From assembly GCF_001423245.1 (NCBI RefSeq), contig NZ_LMOH01000025.1, forward strand, positions 63,329 through 127,328: 64,000 bases of DNA, given 5' to 3'. Shown piece by piece: positions 8,035 to 60,116 of the stretch. Within the stretch, counting starts at the first letter, position 1, and each line of letters begins with the position of its first letter. The position numbers and the translations under genes are program-made. Origin of the DNA: Aureimonas sp. Leaf324. Its GTDB lineage: Bacteria > Pseudomonadota > Alphaproteobacteria > Rhizobiales > Rhizobiaceae. The notes beneath the pieces were generated by a model. It worked only from the letters and a program-made list of their open reading frames with translations. It was not told the origin of the DNA and searched no databases.

Positions 8035-9012
8035 CTATTGCGGAATCTCGACATGGCCGCCGAAGCCGTAGCGCATGGCCGAGAGCATCTTGTCGCCGAA
8101 GGTCGCCATCTGGCGCGAGCGGTAGCGCGCGTAGAGCGCGGCCGACAGGACGTTGACCGGCACCGCCTCCTCCATCGCCGCCTCCAGCGTCCAGCGCCCC
8201 TCGCCCGAGTCGGCGACGTTGCCGGAGAAGTGGTCGAGGTTTCGGTCGCCGGCCAGCGCGATCGCAGTGAGGTCGAGAAGCCAGGACGAAATCACCGAAC
8301 CGCGGCGCCACACCTCGGCGATGTCGGGGAGGTTGAGATCGAAGCGTTCGTCCTCGGGCAGGGCTGAAGAATTCTTGGTCTTCAGGATGTCAAAGCCCTC
8401 GGCGTAGGCCTGCATCAGCCCGTACTCGATGCCGTTGTGCACCATCTTGACGAAGTGGCCCGCGCCCGCCGGCCCGGCATGGATATAGCCGCGCTCGGCC
8501 CGGTCGTCGGCGGCATGGCGGCCGGGCGTGCGCTCGATATCGCCGTATCCCGGCGCCAGCGCGTCGAAGACGGGATCGAGCTCGCGCACCGTGTCGTCGG
8601 GTCCGCCGATCATCATGCAGTAGCCGCGCTCCAGCCCCCAGACGCCCCCCGAGGTGCCGACGTCGACATAGCGGATGCCCTTCGGTTCCAGTTCCTTGGC
8701 GCGGCGGATGTCGTCCTTGTAGAAGGAGTTGCCGCCGTCGATCACGACATCGCCGGGCGAGGCGAGACCCGCCAGCTCGCGGATCGTCGCCTCCGTCGGC
8801 TCGCCGGCCGGCAGCATGACCCAGAAGACGCGGCGCCCGGAAAACTGGCCGGCGAGGTCTGCGAGCGACGACGCGCCCTTGGCGCCCTCGCCCTGAAGGC
8901 CCGACACGGCCTCCGCGTTGCGGTCGAAGACGAGGCATTCGTGGCCGTGCGCCATGAGGCGGCGAGCGATGTTGCCGCCCATGCGGCCGAGGCCGATGAT
9001 CGCGATCTGCAT
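8035..9012 (-). CDS. gnd: 6-phosphogluconate dehydrogenase, decarboxylating (short form)
   Basis: A 325-residue oxidoreductase that would convert 6-phosphogluconate to ribulose 5-phosphate and CO2. The N-terminal nucleotide-binding motif is [13 protein letters not shown], and the catalytic-region motif [10 protein letters not shown] is clear. The protein belongs to the short class (about 300-330 residues, the YqeC/GntZ type) rather than the roughly 470-residue classical enzyme. In that class NAD use has been reported for some members, but the cofactor is not decided here. It lies 49 bases downstream of tkt, so the two form a pentose-phosphate unit. Confidence 0.9.
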
Positions 9013-53975: not shown

Positions 53976-55496
53976 TCATTTCACGCGGCGAAGGCGCGGG
54001 GCGGCGGCAGGCCCGCGCGGCTTGGCGCTGCCCGCCCCGGTGCGCCAGTTGTTGCCGGCGATGGTGACGACGCGGTTGCCGCGAAAGTCCGTCTCGGCGG
54101 CGATATAGCCGCGCTCGGCCATCCAGGTCAGAAGGAAGCGCCCGCGCGAGGGCGAATGGCTGCCGTAGGCGCGCGCCAGCACCTCGTCGCCGGGGCAGGG
54201 CTCGGCGTCGCGTGCCGCCTTCGCCAGAAGGAGATAGACGCCCTGCATGTCCTCCGGCAGCTCCTCCGATCGCGCCACGACCTCGGTCCAGGCCTCGTCC
54301 TCGCCGTCGGCTCCGACCCCGGCCCGCGCCAGCGCGAGCTTGCGCCGGAAGCCGGCAAGATCGAGCGCACCCGGCGACAGCCGCTTCAGCCGGCAATGGG
54401 TGAGAAAGTCCTGATAGAGGGTCTGGACGGGGCGGAACGCCGCCTCCGGGTCGGCCATCAGCTCGGTGAAGATGGAATCGATCCGCTCCTGGCGCTCGGC
54501 CAGCGTCTCCTCGTCCTCCTCCGGCTCGTCCTCCAGCGGGGCGGGCGCGGCAAAGCGCGGCGCCGAGACGCGCTCCAGAAGCTCGCGCGTCGCCACCGCC
54601 GGCTCGCGCCGAACCGGCGCCGGCAGGGCGACCGGCTCGTCCGCGCCGGCGGTGAAGATGAGATCGGCCATCTCGGCCGGGCTCGCCTCGGGCAGCGCCA
54701 TCAGCACCGGGCGGCCCGAGCGTCCGGCCGTCTCCACCGGGCCGATGCGCAGCGGAATGGGCTTGCGCGACAGCGCCGGCCCGAGCGCCACGAAGTGGCC
54801 GGGCTCGAGGTCGCGGAAGCGCTCGGCCTGCCGCCGGTCCATGCCCAGAAGGTCGGCCGCGCGCGCCATGTCGATGTCGAGAAAGGTGCGGCCCATCAGG
54901 AAGTTCGAGGCCTCCGCCGCCACGTTCTTGGCAAGCTTGGCGAGGCGCTGCGTCGCGATCATGCCGGCCAGCCCGCGCTTGCGGCCGCGGCACATGAGGT
55001 TGGTCATCGCGCCGAGCGAGATGCGACGCGCCTCGTCCCCCACTTCGCCGGCGATCGCGGGCGCGAAGATCTGCGCCTCGTCCACCGCGATCAGCATCGG
55101 GAACCAGTGGTGCCGGTCGGCGTCGAAGAGACCGTTCAGGAAGGCGGCAGCGCAGTTCATCTGCACCTCGGCATCCAGCCCTTCGAGGTTGAGGACGACC
55201 GAGGCGCGATGCTGGCGGATGCGCGTCGCGATGCGCGCGAGTTCGGCGGGCGTCCGGTCTGCGTCCACCACGACATGCCCGAACCGGTCGGAGAAGGACA
55301 CGAAGTCGCCCTCCGGATCGATGATCGCCTGCTGCACCCAGCCGGCGCTCTGCTCCAGGATGCGCCGGAAAAGGTGCGACTTGCCGGAGCCGGAATTGCC
55401 CTGCACCAGAAGGCGCGTGGACAGGAGTTCCTCCAGGTCCATCTCCGCCGGCTCGCCCGTGGCGGTCGTTCCGAGATCGACGGCGACCTTGGTCAA
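53976..55496 (-). CDS. HerA/DUF853-like ATPase
   Basis: A 506-residue P-loop ATPase. Walker A GNSGSGKS at 33-40, a conserved IIDPEGDF strand, Walker B MLIAVDEAQIF, and a sensor region IATQRLAKLAKN. The pattern matches the HerA/VirB4-FtsK branch often annotated as DUF853 or ATP-binding protein. The C-terminal ~200 residues contain an acidic linker (DEPEEDEE) and a winged-helix-like end. Classical HerA works with the nuclease NurA, but no nurA gene is adjacent. TTG start with GGAG 8 bases upstream; the first ATG (55442) lies within the domain start. Its cellular role is unknown. Confidence 0.83.
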   Translation of the reverse strand: MTKVAVDLGTTATGEPAEMDLEELLSTRLLVQGNSGSGKSHLFRRILEQSAGWVQQAIIDPEGDFVSFSDRFGHVVVDADRTPAELARIATRIRQHRASVVLNLEGLDAEVQMNCAAAFLNGLFDADRHHWFPMLIAVDEAQIFAPAIAGEVGDEARRISLGAMTNLMCRGRKRGLAGMIATQRLAKLAKNVAAEASNFLMGRTFLDIDMARAADLLGMDRRQAERFRDLEPGHFVALGPALSRKPIPLRIGPVETAGRSGRPVLMALPEASPAEMADLIFTAGADEPVALPAPVRREPAVATRELLERVSAPRFAAPAPLEDEPEEDEETLAERQERIDSIFTELMADPEAAFRPVQTLYQDFLTHCRLKRLSPGALDLAGFRRKLALARAGVGADGEDEAWTEVVARSEELPEDMQGVYLLLAKAARDAEPCPGDEVLARAYGSHSPSRGRFLLTWMAERGYIAAETDFRGNRVVTIAGNNWRTGAGSAKPRGPAAAPRLRRVK

Positions 55497-56603: not shown

Positions 56604-58082
56604 TCACCCCAGCGCGATCTCGGGCACGTAGGCTTTGGCGCGGTCCATGTCGGCGTGGAAGGCTTCGCGCTCGCGCGCCTGGGCCTGCGGGTCGGGCAGG
56701 CGAAGGATGTAGGCGGGGTGGACGGTGACGAGGAGCTTGGTGGTGCCGCCGGGCAGGTCGATCAGCTTGGAGCGCGTGTCGCGGATCGTCACGGTCTTGC
56801 CGAGGACGGACGCGGCGGCGGTGGCGCCGAGCGCCACGATGAGCTTCGGCTTGATGAGCTCGCGCTCCTGTTCGAGCCACCAGCGGCAGACCTTGACCTC
56901 GCCCATGTTGGGCTTGGCGTGGATGCGCCGCTTGCCGCGCGGCTCGAACTTGAAATGCTTCACGGCATTGGTGACGTAGGCTTGGGAGCGGTCGATGCCG
57001 GCGGCGGCGAGAGCCTCGTCGAAGACCTTGCCGGCGGGGCCGATGAAGGGCTCGCCGGCCAGATCCTCCTGGTCGCCCGGCTGCTCGCCGACGAAGATGA
57101 CCGGCGCGTCGGCGGGGCCCTTGCCGAAGATGGTCTGGGTCGCGGGCTCCCAGAGCGGGCAGGCCTTGCAGTGCTTCGCCTGCTCGCGGGCCTCCTCGAT
57201 GTCTTCCGGCGGCTTGTTGAAGCCGTTGAAGGCCGGAGCCTGTGATGCCGCGCGTGCCATGTCGTTTCGCTCCGCCTGTTTCTCGTGGCGGAAACTCGGG
57301 AGCGTCGGCTGGGTTTCGATCATGCGGCGCTGCGCCGCCTCGGCGCCCCGGATCAGCGGCTCGATCAGGGTCGCCTCGGGCAGGTTGTGCCAGTACTTCT
57401 TCGGCATCTCGGCTTGCATCGCCTTCACCTTCAAGCGCGCCGGATTGAAGATCGAGGCGTAGTAGGTGAGCCAGAGCGCTTCCATGTCGTCGTCGGCGGG
57501 CTTCTGGGAGGGGTCGGCGCCCGGCGCGAAGACCATCTCGACGCCGTCCCAGTGGACGGAGCGCTTCGGCGTCAGGATGCTCCAGACCATGCCGGCGAAG
57601 CGTCTGACGAAGAACGGGGCGGTGAGTTCGACCACGTGGTGGAAGGGCTCGAACCAGGCGATGTACTGGCGTTGGCCCTCGGCGTCCTCGATCTCGCGGA
57701 AGCGCACGAAGGCCTTCATCTTGTGGCTGTCGCGATAGACCGCCTTCTGCATCTCGACGGCGCGGCGCGTGTCGGAGTCGGAGACGATCTCGAGGAGCTT
57801 CTTCTCCGACTGGAGGCGCCAGAGGAGGCGATAGGCGAAGACGAAGCGCTCAGGGTCGGCGTGGCAGATGAGCTTGCGCGCGACGTCCGGAAACGCCTTC
57901 GGAACGTTGAAGGGCGCGGCGTCAGCAGCGCGGTCCGGCAACGGCTCGGCAAAGAGGGGCGCGGGATCCTCGCCCACGGCAAAGGCCATCTCCTCCGGCG
58001 GCACACCGAGCGCCAGCGCGGTGCGGGCCGCCTCGCGCCAGCCGTCGAAATCCGCCGGGTGGTCGAGGCGCGCCAGAAACAT
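56604..58082 (-). CDS. udgX: DUF4130-UdgX fusion, uracil-DNA-binding repair protein
   Basis: A 492-residue protein. Residues ~1-250 are the DUF4130/TIGR03915 region (WRLQSEKKLLEIVSD, FVRFREIEDAEG, HWDGVEMVF). Residues ~290-492 are a family 4-like UDG: CKACPL (Cys305, Cys308), GEQPGDQEDLAGEPFIGPAG, then the UdgX-specific KRRIHAKP loop with His388, and VTVHPAYILRLP. UdgX proteins bind uracil in DNA and become covalently attached through that His. Only three cysteines are in the UDG part (305, 308, 399); the fourth family-4 position appears to be His in VKHFKFEP. Its ATG overlaps the radical SAM stop by 1 base, so both are co-translated. Confidence 0.9.
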   Translation of the reverse strand: MFLARLDHPADFDGWREAARTALALGVPPEEMAFAVGEDPAPLFAEPLPDRAADAAPFNVPKAFPDVARKLICHADPERFVFAYRLLWRLQSEKKLLEIVSDSDTRRAVEMQKAVYRDSHKMKAFVRFREIEDAEGQRQYIAWFEPFHHVVELTAPFFVRRFAGMVWSILTPKRSVHWDGVEMVFAPGADPSQKPADDDMEALWLTYYASIFNPARLKVKAMQAEMPKKYWHNLPEATLIEPLIRGAEAAQRRMIETQPTLPSFRHEKQAERNDMARAASQAPAFNGFNKPPEDIEEAREQAKHCKACPLWEPATQTIFGKGPADAPVIFVGEQPGDQEDLAGEPFIGPAGKVFDEALAAAGIDRSQAYVTNAVKHFKFEPRGKRRIHAKPNMGEVKVCRWWLEQERELIKPKLIVALGATAAASVLGKTVTIRDTRSKLIDLPGGTTKLLVTVHPAYILRLPDPQAQAREREAFHADMDRAKAYVPEIALG

Positions 58083-59320
58083 CAGAAGAGGCTCAGCTGC
58101 TCGGCCTTGGGTGCCACCAGCCCGCGCAGGTTCTCCCGGTCGGTGAGGCCACCAGGCGTCCAGTCCAGCGCCTGCACGAAGGGGCGCACCTTTTCCACCG
58201 AGTGGCAGAGCCGGGCGACGTCGTCGAGACGCAGCGACCGATGGCGGCGCGTCGAGAGGATGCGGTCCACCGCCTTGGCGCCGAAGCCCGGCACGCGCAG
58301 GAGCATCTCGCGATCCGCCTTGTTGACGTCGACCGGGAAACGCCCGCGGTTCTTCAGCGCCCAGGCGAGCTTCGGATCGATGGCGAGATCCAGCATCCCG
58401 TCGGCCGAGCCGCCCGAGACGATCTCGTCCCGCCCGAACCCGTAGAAGCGCATCAGCCAGTCGGCCTGATAGAGGCGGTGCTCGCGCATCAGGGGCGGCT
58501 TGGCGAGCGGCAGGCGCGAGGAGGCATCCGGGATCGGCGAGAAGGCGGAATAGTAGACACGGCGCAGCCGGTAGTTGCCGTAGAGGTTCTCGGACCGGCC
58601 GAGGATCAGGTCGTCGTTCGCCCCGTCGGCGCCGATGATCATCTGCGTCGACTGGCCGCCCGGCGCGAACTTCGCCGGCTTGGCGCGGTCCTTCGCCTCG
58701 CCCTTGTGTTCGTCGATCTTGAGCCGGAGGTGCCCCATCGAGCGCTTGATGTCGCGCGGCTTCTTCTCGGGCGCCAGCGCCTCCAGCGCGATGTCGGTCG
58801 GCAGTTCGATGTTGATCGACAGGCGGTCGGCGAAGAGCCCGGCCTCCTCGATGAGCTTCGGCGATGCGTCGGGGATGGTCTTGAGGTGGATGTAGCCCGA
58901 AAAGTTCTCTTCCATCCGCAGCTTTCGCGCGATGCGCACCATCTCCTCCATCGTGTAGTCGGAGTTGCGGATGATGCCCGAGGAGAGGAACAGGCCCTCG
59001 ATGTAGTTCCGCTTGTAGAACTCCATCGTCAGCTTCACGACCTCCTCCACCGAGAAGCGCGCCCTTGCGACGTTGGAGGACGAGCGGTTCACGCAGTAGA
59101 CGCAGTCGTAGATGCAGAAGTTGGTCATCAGGATCTTGAGCAGCGAGATGCACCGCCCGTCCGGCGCATAGGCGTGGCAAATCCCGGACCCTTCGGTCGA
59201 GCCGATGCCCTTGGACTTCGACGAATCCCGTTTCGATGTCCCGCTGGAAGCGCAGGACGCGTCGTACTTGGCGGCGTCCGAGAGGATCGCCAGCTTCTGC
59301 ATCAGGGTCGGCTTGCTCAT
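58082..59320 (-). CDS. Putative DNA modification/repair radical SAM protein (TIGR03916-like)
   Basis: A 412-residue protein. The radical SAM motif CIYDCVYC has Cys69, Cys73 and Cys76, preceded by LKILMTNF. Additional Cys-rich N-terminus. LSINIELPTD and MIIGADGANDDLI lie in the barrel. The C-terminal ~90 residues include a helix-hairpin-helix DNA-binding segment, VNKADREMLLRVPGFGAKAV. The partner is UdgX, the usual neighbour of this family; the reaction is not known. Start: ATG at 59320. Longer starts at 59356 or 59377 would place the SOS box inside the gene, whereas 59320 leaves it 15 bases upstream with a TATATA sequence between, so the short start is preferred. Confidence 0.9.
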   Translation of the reverse strand: MSKPTLMQKLAILSDAAKYDASCASSGTSKRDSSKSKGIGSTEGSGICHAYAPDGRCISLLKILMTNFCIYDCVYCVNRSSSNVARARFSVEEVVKLTMEFYKRNYIEGLFLSSGIIRNSDYTMEEMVRIARKLRMEENFSGYIHLKTIPDASPKLIEEAGLFADRLSINIELPTDIALEALAPEKKPRDIKRSMGHLRLKIDEHKGEAKDRAKPAKFAPGGQSTQMIIGADGANDDLILGRSENLYGNYRLRRVYYSAFSPIPDASSRLPLAKPPLMREHRLYQADWLMRFYGFGRDEIVSGGSADGMLDLAIDPKLAWALKNRGRFPVDVNKADREMLLRVPGFGAKAVDRILSTRRHRSLRLDDVARLCHSVEKVRPFVQALDWTPGGLTDRENLRGLVAPKAEQLSLF

Positions 59321-59334
59321 TTTCTTTATATAGT

Positions 59335-59349
59335 GTTCCCGCTTCGTTC
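59335..59349 (-). promoter_or_regulatory. LexA (SOS) box of the radical SAM-udgX operon
   Basis: GTTC-CCGCTTC-GTTC is an exact match to the alphaproteobacterial LexA consensus GTTC-N7-GTTC (read as GAAC-N7-GAAC on the minus strand). It ends 15 bases before the radical SAM start, next to a TATATA -10-like sequence, so LexA binding would block the promoter. The 223-base gap also holds the BA14K promoter. Confidence 0.8.
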
Positions 59350-59408: not shown

Positions 59409-59427
59409 GTTCAGGTCGCGTTCAGGT
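59409..59427 (+). promoter_or_regulatory. Direct repeat GTTCAGGT-N3-GTTCAGGT before BA14K gene 1
   Basis: Two identical 8-mers 11 bp apart, about 117 bases before the start of the first BA14K gene, followed by an AT-rich -10-like patch (TTTTATGA). The 11-bp period is that of OmpR-family sites. A near copy occurs before the second BA14K gene. Confidence 0.5.
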
Positions 59428-60097: not shown

Positions 60098-60116
60098 GTT
60101 CAGCTATCGTTCATCT
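60098..60116 (+). promoter_or_regulatory. Direct repeat GTTCAGCT-N3-GTTCATCT before BA14K gene 2
   Basis: Two related 8-mers with an 11-bp period, about 81 bases before the gene. They match the element before copy 1 in 13 of 16 repeat positions and both are followed within two bases by TGCG. Confidence 0.45.

Follow-up and report, generated by a model that had tools for sequence, protein, structure and literature searches.

A predicted SOS operon for a TIGR03916 radical SAM protein and a DUF4130-UdgX fusion in Aureimonas and other Proteobacteria

An operon designated COG1573-COG4277 is described as being under SOS control in Bacteroidetes, with earlier reports cited for Verrucomicrobia and Alphaproteobacteria and with GTTC-N7-GTTC given as the LexA motif of the latter class, in the available part of PMC8565304. 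Here, we describe an operon of Aureimonas sp. Leaf324 that encodes a radical S-adenosylmethionine (SAM) protein and a DUF4130-UdgX fusion protein; it is located in a stretch of 64,000 nucleotides of contig NZ_LMOH01000025.1 (positions 63,329 to 127,328; hereafter the window). The genome measures 4.4 Mb and is spread over 30 contigs. We take COG4277 to be the helix-hairpin-helix (HhH) radical SAM protein and COG1573 to be the uracil-DNA glycosylase (UDG) of the reported operon.

Other described systems bear on the two proteins. UdgX removes uracil and, by way of its histidine, becomes bonded to the sugar left at the site; its motifs are GEQPG (motif A) and a KRRIH loop containing that histidine (PMC10359453, as far as available). 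DUF4130 has been associated with SplB-like radical SAM photolyases (available part of PMC3765255), and SplB is SOS-controlled in several species according to the accessible text of PMC8565304. An unnamed radical SAM protein is listed in other SOS regulons (PMC7739468, in part), and four UDG-family genes are reported from Caulobacter, for which SOS control is not stated in the available part of PMC1839093. Among titles and the beginnings of abstracts in the open-licence literature, a function of the operon was not found.

The operon and its predicted LexA box

Both genes lie on the minus strand. The radical SAM gene (58082..59320; 412 amino acids) matched TIGR03916 with 564.8 bits against a cut-off of 343.5, and it is followed by the DUF4130-UdgX fusion gene (56604..58082; 492 amino acids). 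The one-base overlap of the two genes noticed earlier was confirmed, as the radical SAM stop codon occupies 58084-58082, the ATG of the fusion gene 58082-58080, and base 58082 is common to both. The original prediction, made from the letters of the window, also placed a GTTC-N7-GTTC site upstream of the radical SAM gene. It was found exactly, the plus strand reading GTTCCCGCTTCGTTC at 59335-59349, which toward the minus-strand gene reads GAACGAAGCGGGAAC, that is, a predicted LexA box of the form GAAC-N7-GAAC. The site is directly upstream of the gene as claimed; however, 14 bases rather than 15 intervene before the start codon (ATG, 59320-59318), 15 being the difference between the two positions. 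A putative -10 element, TATATA (59327..59332, minus strand), directly follows the box in the gene direction, and CTAT- or GTAT-like bases occupy its position in most close relatives with a box at -29.

As a bare pattern, the box is not significant: there are 3 exact GTTC-N7-GTTC matches in the window for 1.24 expected, 12 of 100 shuffles reach 3, and the genome holds 155 exact matches compared with 38 for the pattern read backwards. These counts are what a chance match would have in its favor. The conserved position of the box in the promoters of relatives makes the site more than chance, and we therefore compared the loci around radical SAM genes of this family. The 80 named alphaproteobacterial loci were the best 80 of 588 confirmed and are hence skewed to close relatives (among the matches listed, the named loci whose radical SAM protein is closest to that of the window are from Aurantimonas species, with 81-86% identity). 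Further loci came from 96 of the 112 genomes with a match over the family cut-off in two even samples, one of the order (38 of 199 genomes with a match) and one of the phylum (84 of 398), with 10 in common. Three loci were left out: L099, a second copy of the window locus; L184, whose flanks equal those of L059; and L119, which occupies the same place as L155 and stood in for it in the count of half-site spacers. The final set of 175 comprises 146 alphaproteobacterial loci, window included, and 29 from other classes of the phylum; owing to their relatedness, these loci should not be counted as independent trials.

The box was expected by the original prediction to recur in orthologous operons, and so it does in the Alphaproteobacteria. 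Between -150 and +20 of the start, 141/146 loci carry an exact box and 5/146 (L043, L058, L067, L104 and L113) a box with one mismatch, whereas random 170-bp stretches do so in 0.4% and 8.8% of cases, respectively. Closer in, from -60 to +5 of the inferred start, the box is exact in 132/146 loci (128 in the orientation of the window's box and 4 reversed) and has one mismatch in 5/146, compared with 0.2% and 2.8% (best box with one mismatch) of random 65-bp stretches from the same loci. When half-site spacers from N0 to N15 were counted in this interval, N7 was present in 132 loci and every other spacer in 0 or 1. With a box of at most one mismatch near the start in 137/146 loci versus about 3% of random stretches, a chance match can practically be dismissed. 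Boxes near the ATG have ATA at the opening of the spacer in 65 of 85 loci, and these bases may belong to a -10 element. Where the box is further out, 21 of 43 loci have at least four of six matches to TATAAT after the box, and 15 of the 43 have them inside the spacer as well; two promoter types among the boxed loci are only suggested by these patterns.

A matrix was built from 127 other boxes of the operon's relatives and was used for scoring. The original prediction called the SOS box perfect, which holds for both half-sites; the GC-rich spacer, however, is poor, and the box as a whole reaches 15.5 bits, near the 5th percentile of the boxes that make up the matrix. Elsewhere in the genome, the same matrix gave 11.4 bits for the exact lexA box, 14.0 for a one-mismatch reverse lexA site and 20.7 for the uvrA box. 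The exact lexA and uvrA boxes lie about 57 and 189 bases upstream of the respective family matches, and recA is present with two one-mismatch boxes only.

Outside the Alphaproteobacteria, the box changes form. CTGT-N8-ACAG is the LexA box of gamma- and betaproteobacteria, and in the 29 loci of other classes it was exact in 19, had one mismatch in 5 and was absent in 5; random stretches gave 0.2% exact and 1.1% one-mismatch boxes. The exact boxes sit at -56 to -15 relative to the inferred start, which is possibly wrong in 3 of the 29 (L160, L161 and L179), and among spacers of 4 to 13 bases, N8 occurred in 19 loci, N13 in 1 and the others in none. Three of the five boxless loci belong to one genus (f89/g214), in which lexA is found under TTAGTAGTAATACTAA, a form known from Xanthomonas, and the operon promoter lacks TTAGTAGTAATACTAA. 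In the other two, the best LexA matches were 99.6 and 62.8 bits, under the family cut-off of 110.95. L157, L169 and L180, of one genus, have in common an inverted repeat, TCTCATCCAATGAGA, which is conserved and occupies the place expected for a LexA box, ahead of the radical SAM gene. Other phyla were represented by three plasmid records only (Bacteroides, Acetoanaerobium and Gemmatirosa). GAAC-N4-GTTC is a further form of the LexA box, and the clostridial copy from the plasmid collection (Acetoanaerobium) has a putative box, AAACATATGTTC, upstream with one mismatch from it.

In some genomes, the box is shared with other genes. Seven loci of family f35 (L095, L098, L101, L137, L138, L139 and L143), which we guess to be Bradyrhizobium-like, have one exact box common to the operon and to divergent genes, and situated between them; we take these genes, from their sequence, to be imuA and imuB. 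The box is the sole exact one within 300 bases upstream, in reverse orientation at -96 to -99. The divergent pair is also present in L115 and L117, with several boxes. A promoter region in common with imuA-imuB links the system, in these genomes, to the error-prone polymerase set.

These comparisons also bear on the identity of the regulator. OmpR-type proteins, too, use repeats about 11 bases apart, and the direct repeat could in principle be bound by such a regulator instead of LexA; the window's other two GTTC-N7-GTTC sites precede BA14K-like genes, which are not obvious SOS genes. However, 24 of the 29 promoters from other classes carry CTGT-N8-ACAG with at most one mismatch, in keeping with the known change in LexA specificity, and such variation would not be expected if the regulator were not LexA. 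The lexA and uvrA genes of this genome bear the same box, and seven loci have it in common with imuA-imuB. We consider a regulator other than LexA very improbable.

The radical SAM and DUF4130-UdgX proteins

The radical SAM protein was aligned with its counterparts in 178 proteins (from the 175 loci and the three plasmid records). Its CX3CX2C motif (C69, C73 and C76; 59093..59116, minus strand) is invariant in 178/178. Three further cysteines, C23, C48 and C57 (59150..59254, minus strand), are each conserved in 177/178, the exception being the Gemmatirosa protein, which is 39% identical and may be outside the TIGR03916 family. With six fixed cysteines, there would be a second iron-sulfur cluster besides the radical SAM cluster, and the pattern suggests that C23, C48 and C57 hold it. 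The original prediction cited a C-terminal HhH segment as support for DNA contact. The segment (residues 314-356; 58253..58381, minus strand) matched at 21.8 bits, under the Pfam cut-off of 27, but P344, G345 and G347 are invariant in 178/178. TIGR03916 was the sole NCBIfam family matched at E <= 0.001. A structure model made from an alignment of the window with 57 of the 80 named loci (mean predicted local distance difference test score, pLDDT, 82.4) gave weak matches to many radical SAM enzymes, the best with E 5.8e-8 and a template modeling (TM) score of 0.38.

These data bear on the possibility that the radical SAM protein reverses a lesion directly on a damaged pyrimidine, as spore photoproduct lyase does, with no need for uracil. 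The reported tie between DUF4130 and SplB-like photolyases (PMC3765255, in part) speaks for it, and SOS control and the HhH segment are compatible with it. Against this, no photoproduct lyase model was among the NCBIfam matches at E <= 0.001, no photoproduct lyase was among the best 50 of 73 Foldseek matches at E <= 0.001, and the three extra conserved cysteines are not a known feature of SplB. Direct reversal is possible, and in our judgement doubtful.

The second gene had been called UdgX, and a UdgX domain is indeed present (residues 239-480; 56643..57368, minus strand; TIGR03914, 329.5 bits against a cut-off of 189.95). The protein is, however, a fusion in which a DUF4130 domain precedes it (residues 78-236; 57375..57851, minus strand; TIGR03915 spans 8-237), seen by Pfam as DUF4130 plus UDG, and UdgX is undetected in some boxed operons. 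For the UdgX domain, the alignment comprised 58 sequences: that of the window and those of 57 loci out of the 76 in which the fusion is full-length. The KRRIH loop (56919..56933, minus strand) contains H388, the counterpart of the crosslinking histidine; R386 and H388 are invariant, as are E333 and Q334, and K384 and R385 are conserved in at least 90%. The original prediction had this domain covalently trap uracil, which needs correction, as the bond of UdgX goes to the abasic sugar left after uracil removal (PMC10359453, as far as available). In DUF4130, F125, E145, R161 and Y207 are retained throughout a set of as many as 10 diverse sequences. The structure model used for matching the UdgX half had a mean pLDDT of 90.3 and a predicted TM score of 0.55.

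The make-up of the second gene differs between loci. Among the 175, 147 encode a DUF4130-UdgX fusion, 2 have a separate UDG match, 22 have DUF4130 with no UDG match and 4 have no DUF4130 match; the corresponding counts are 136, 2, 4 and 4 of the 146 alphaproteobacterial loci and 11, 0, 18 and 0 of the 29 from other classes. Absence of UDG refers here to the fetched stretch, so UdgX may be encoded elsewhere in those genomes. Of the 22 loci with no UDG match, 20 keep a box with at most one mismatch, and UdgX looks accessory on this account. The boxed loci that have no UdgX make the radical SAM protein and DUF4130 the most constant unit that goes with the LexA box. Furthermore, the second gene in the Bacteroides and clostridial records encodes 257 and about 248 amino acids, respectively, which is too short for the fusion. 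The radical SAM-DUF4130 combination occurs in Proteobacteria, Bacteroidota and Clostridia, with UdgX joined to it in many Proteobacteria.

Variations in gene arrangement were also seen. The radical SAM and DUF4130-UdgX genes of L018 are about 2 kb apart, with a second exact box (approximately 8164-8178) about 100 bases before the latter; this box is near a divergent PIN-toxin-like gene (named by eye). L017 is likewise split, with no exact second box.

An alternative in which UdgX is the working part of an operon that handles uracil in DNA, with the radical SAM protein and DUF4130 as helpers, has to be weighed against these counts. It gains from the fusion in 136/146 alphaproteobacterial loci, from the invariant catalytic residues in the 58 sequences and from the suggestion that SOS-controlled UDGs address ribonucleotide misincorporation by error-prone polymerases (available part of PMC8565304). 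It does not account for the 22/175 loci, 20 of them boxed, in which the radical SAM protein and DUF4130 occur and the fetched stretch gave no UDG match, nor for the short second genes of the Bacteroides and clostridial records. We hold a UdgX-centred operon to be unlikely.

Proposed mechanism and surrounding genes

We consider it very probable that this is an SOS operon repressed by LexA, with the radical SAM protein and DUF4130 as its core and UdgX as an accessory. The model starts from what the sequences show: the box, how far it is conserved and how its form depends on the class, the presence of LexA and RecA in this genome, the gene order, the domains and the key residues. Its regulatory part is strongly supported by comparison of sequences, and its chemistry is a proposal. 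The LexA-RecA switch is established for the SOS response in general. For this strain, we infer that LexA would sit on GAAC-N7-GAAC across the promoter and keep both genes off, and that upon DNA damage, RecA filaments would provoke LexA self-cleavage, giving one message from which the radical SAM enzyme would be made together with the DUF4130-UdgX protein, the latter by coupled translation. The radical SAM enzyme and DUF4130 would be the core pair, by which damaged DNA is chemically processed. The UdgX arm would remove uracil and bond to the abasic sugar left behind, so that DUF4130, and with it the radical SAM enzyme, would be tethered at that site.

A more specific version can be put forward tentatively, as possible rather than probable: the radical SAM protein and DUF4130 would be an SOS-induced DNA-processing machine whose radical enzyme has two clusters, UdgX would serve it as a covalent anchor and bring it uracil or abasic sites, and the radical enzyme would repair the anchored nucleotide or release UdgX. 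If true, release of UdgX from DNA would explain how cells tolerate a self-crosslinking glycosylase. From the regulation, a role in DNA damage is very likely for the widespread TIGR03916 family, and telling the core pair apart from UdgX shows which protein to purify first.

Several observations weigh against the model of an SOS operon given first. UdgX is fused in 136/146 alphaproteobacterial loci and is therefore rarely dispensed with in this class. In four alphaproteobacterial loci that carry the box, the downstream sequence searched (5 kb in L016, L019 and L020; 2.5 kb in L182) gave no DUF4130 match, which weakens a strict two-protein model. Five of the 29 loci from other classes have no box with up to one mismatch, so that SOS control is not universal. 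The spacer of the window's own box scores low. Finally, UDG matches make up all of the 50 PDB matches listed and most of the viral ones, and none of these structural matches could be attributed to DUF4130. L016, L019 and L020 are two Fulvimarina genomes and one Jiella genome, with a boxed radical SAM gene and no DUF4130-UdgX match in the locus.

The repeat at 59409-59423 was set aside as part of the operon promoter, as it scores 5.5 bits and no second exact box was found upstream of the radical SAM gene in the 13 closest named loci (L009-L021; within 1.7 kb upstream for L010). This repeat and another at 60098-60112 each lie upstream of one of two tandem BA14K-like genes (Pfam PF07886; 59544-59993 and 60197-60637, plus strand) and may be LexA sites or other direct-repeat sites; the second scores 13.1 bits, exceeding the exact lexA box of the genome. 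Downstream of the operon is a D-lyxose isomerase gene (Pfam PF07385; 55629-56345, minus strand), and a gene for a HerA-like (DUF87) ATPase is close by (53976-55496, minus strand). A defence-system reading was dropped, as neither operon protein was matched in PADLOC at E <= 0.1. A search for a phage origin gave weak PHROG matches only. Genes similar to that of this radical SAM protein were seen in 2 viral contigs (L205 and L206) and 10 phage records (H61-H70).

Comparison with described systems

In the radical SAM enzymes lipoyl synthase, MiaB and RimO, additional N-terminal cysteines serve a second cluster. These enzymes were among the weak structural matches of the radical SAM protein (TM 0.32-0.54, 12-17% identity), and their substrates are unrelated. 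With respect to the families TIGR03916, TIGR03915 and TIGR03914, all three were matched over their cut-offs, and the two proteins appear to be ordinary members with no difference seen. The UdgX half has the KRRIH loop and GEQPG motif of Mycobacterium smegmatis UdgX and is 42-45% identical to its structures (6AJO, 6IOD and others) in structural alignments; unlike that protein, it is fused at the C-terminal side of DUF4130 and encoded in an SOS-boxed operon. SplB is likewise a radical SAM protein of DNA repair with SOS control in several species (PMC8565304, in part), but the protein described here has no match to its family, finds no counterpart of it among the best 50 of 73 structural matches and has extra conserved cysteines.

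The closest described system is the COG1573-COG4277 operon, which we take to be the same gene pair under the same control in the same class. As its SOS control was already reported, the regulation described here is a new instance of a reported phenomenon, known in kind, and the window strain is a new example. The available part of PMC8565304 makes no mention of DUF4130, of a box shared with imuA-imuB or of UdgX loss; the box form of other classes, the sharing of the box with imuA-imuB, the three additional cysteines and a UdgX that is optional go beyond that account.

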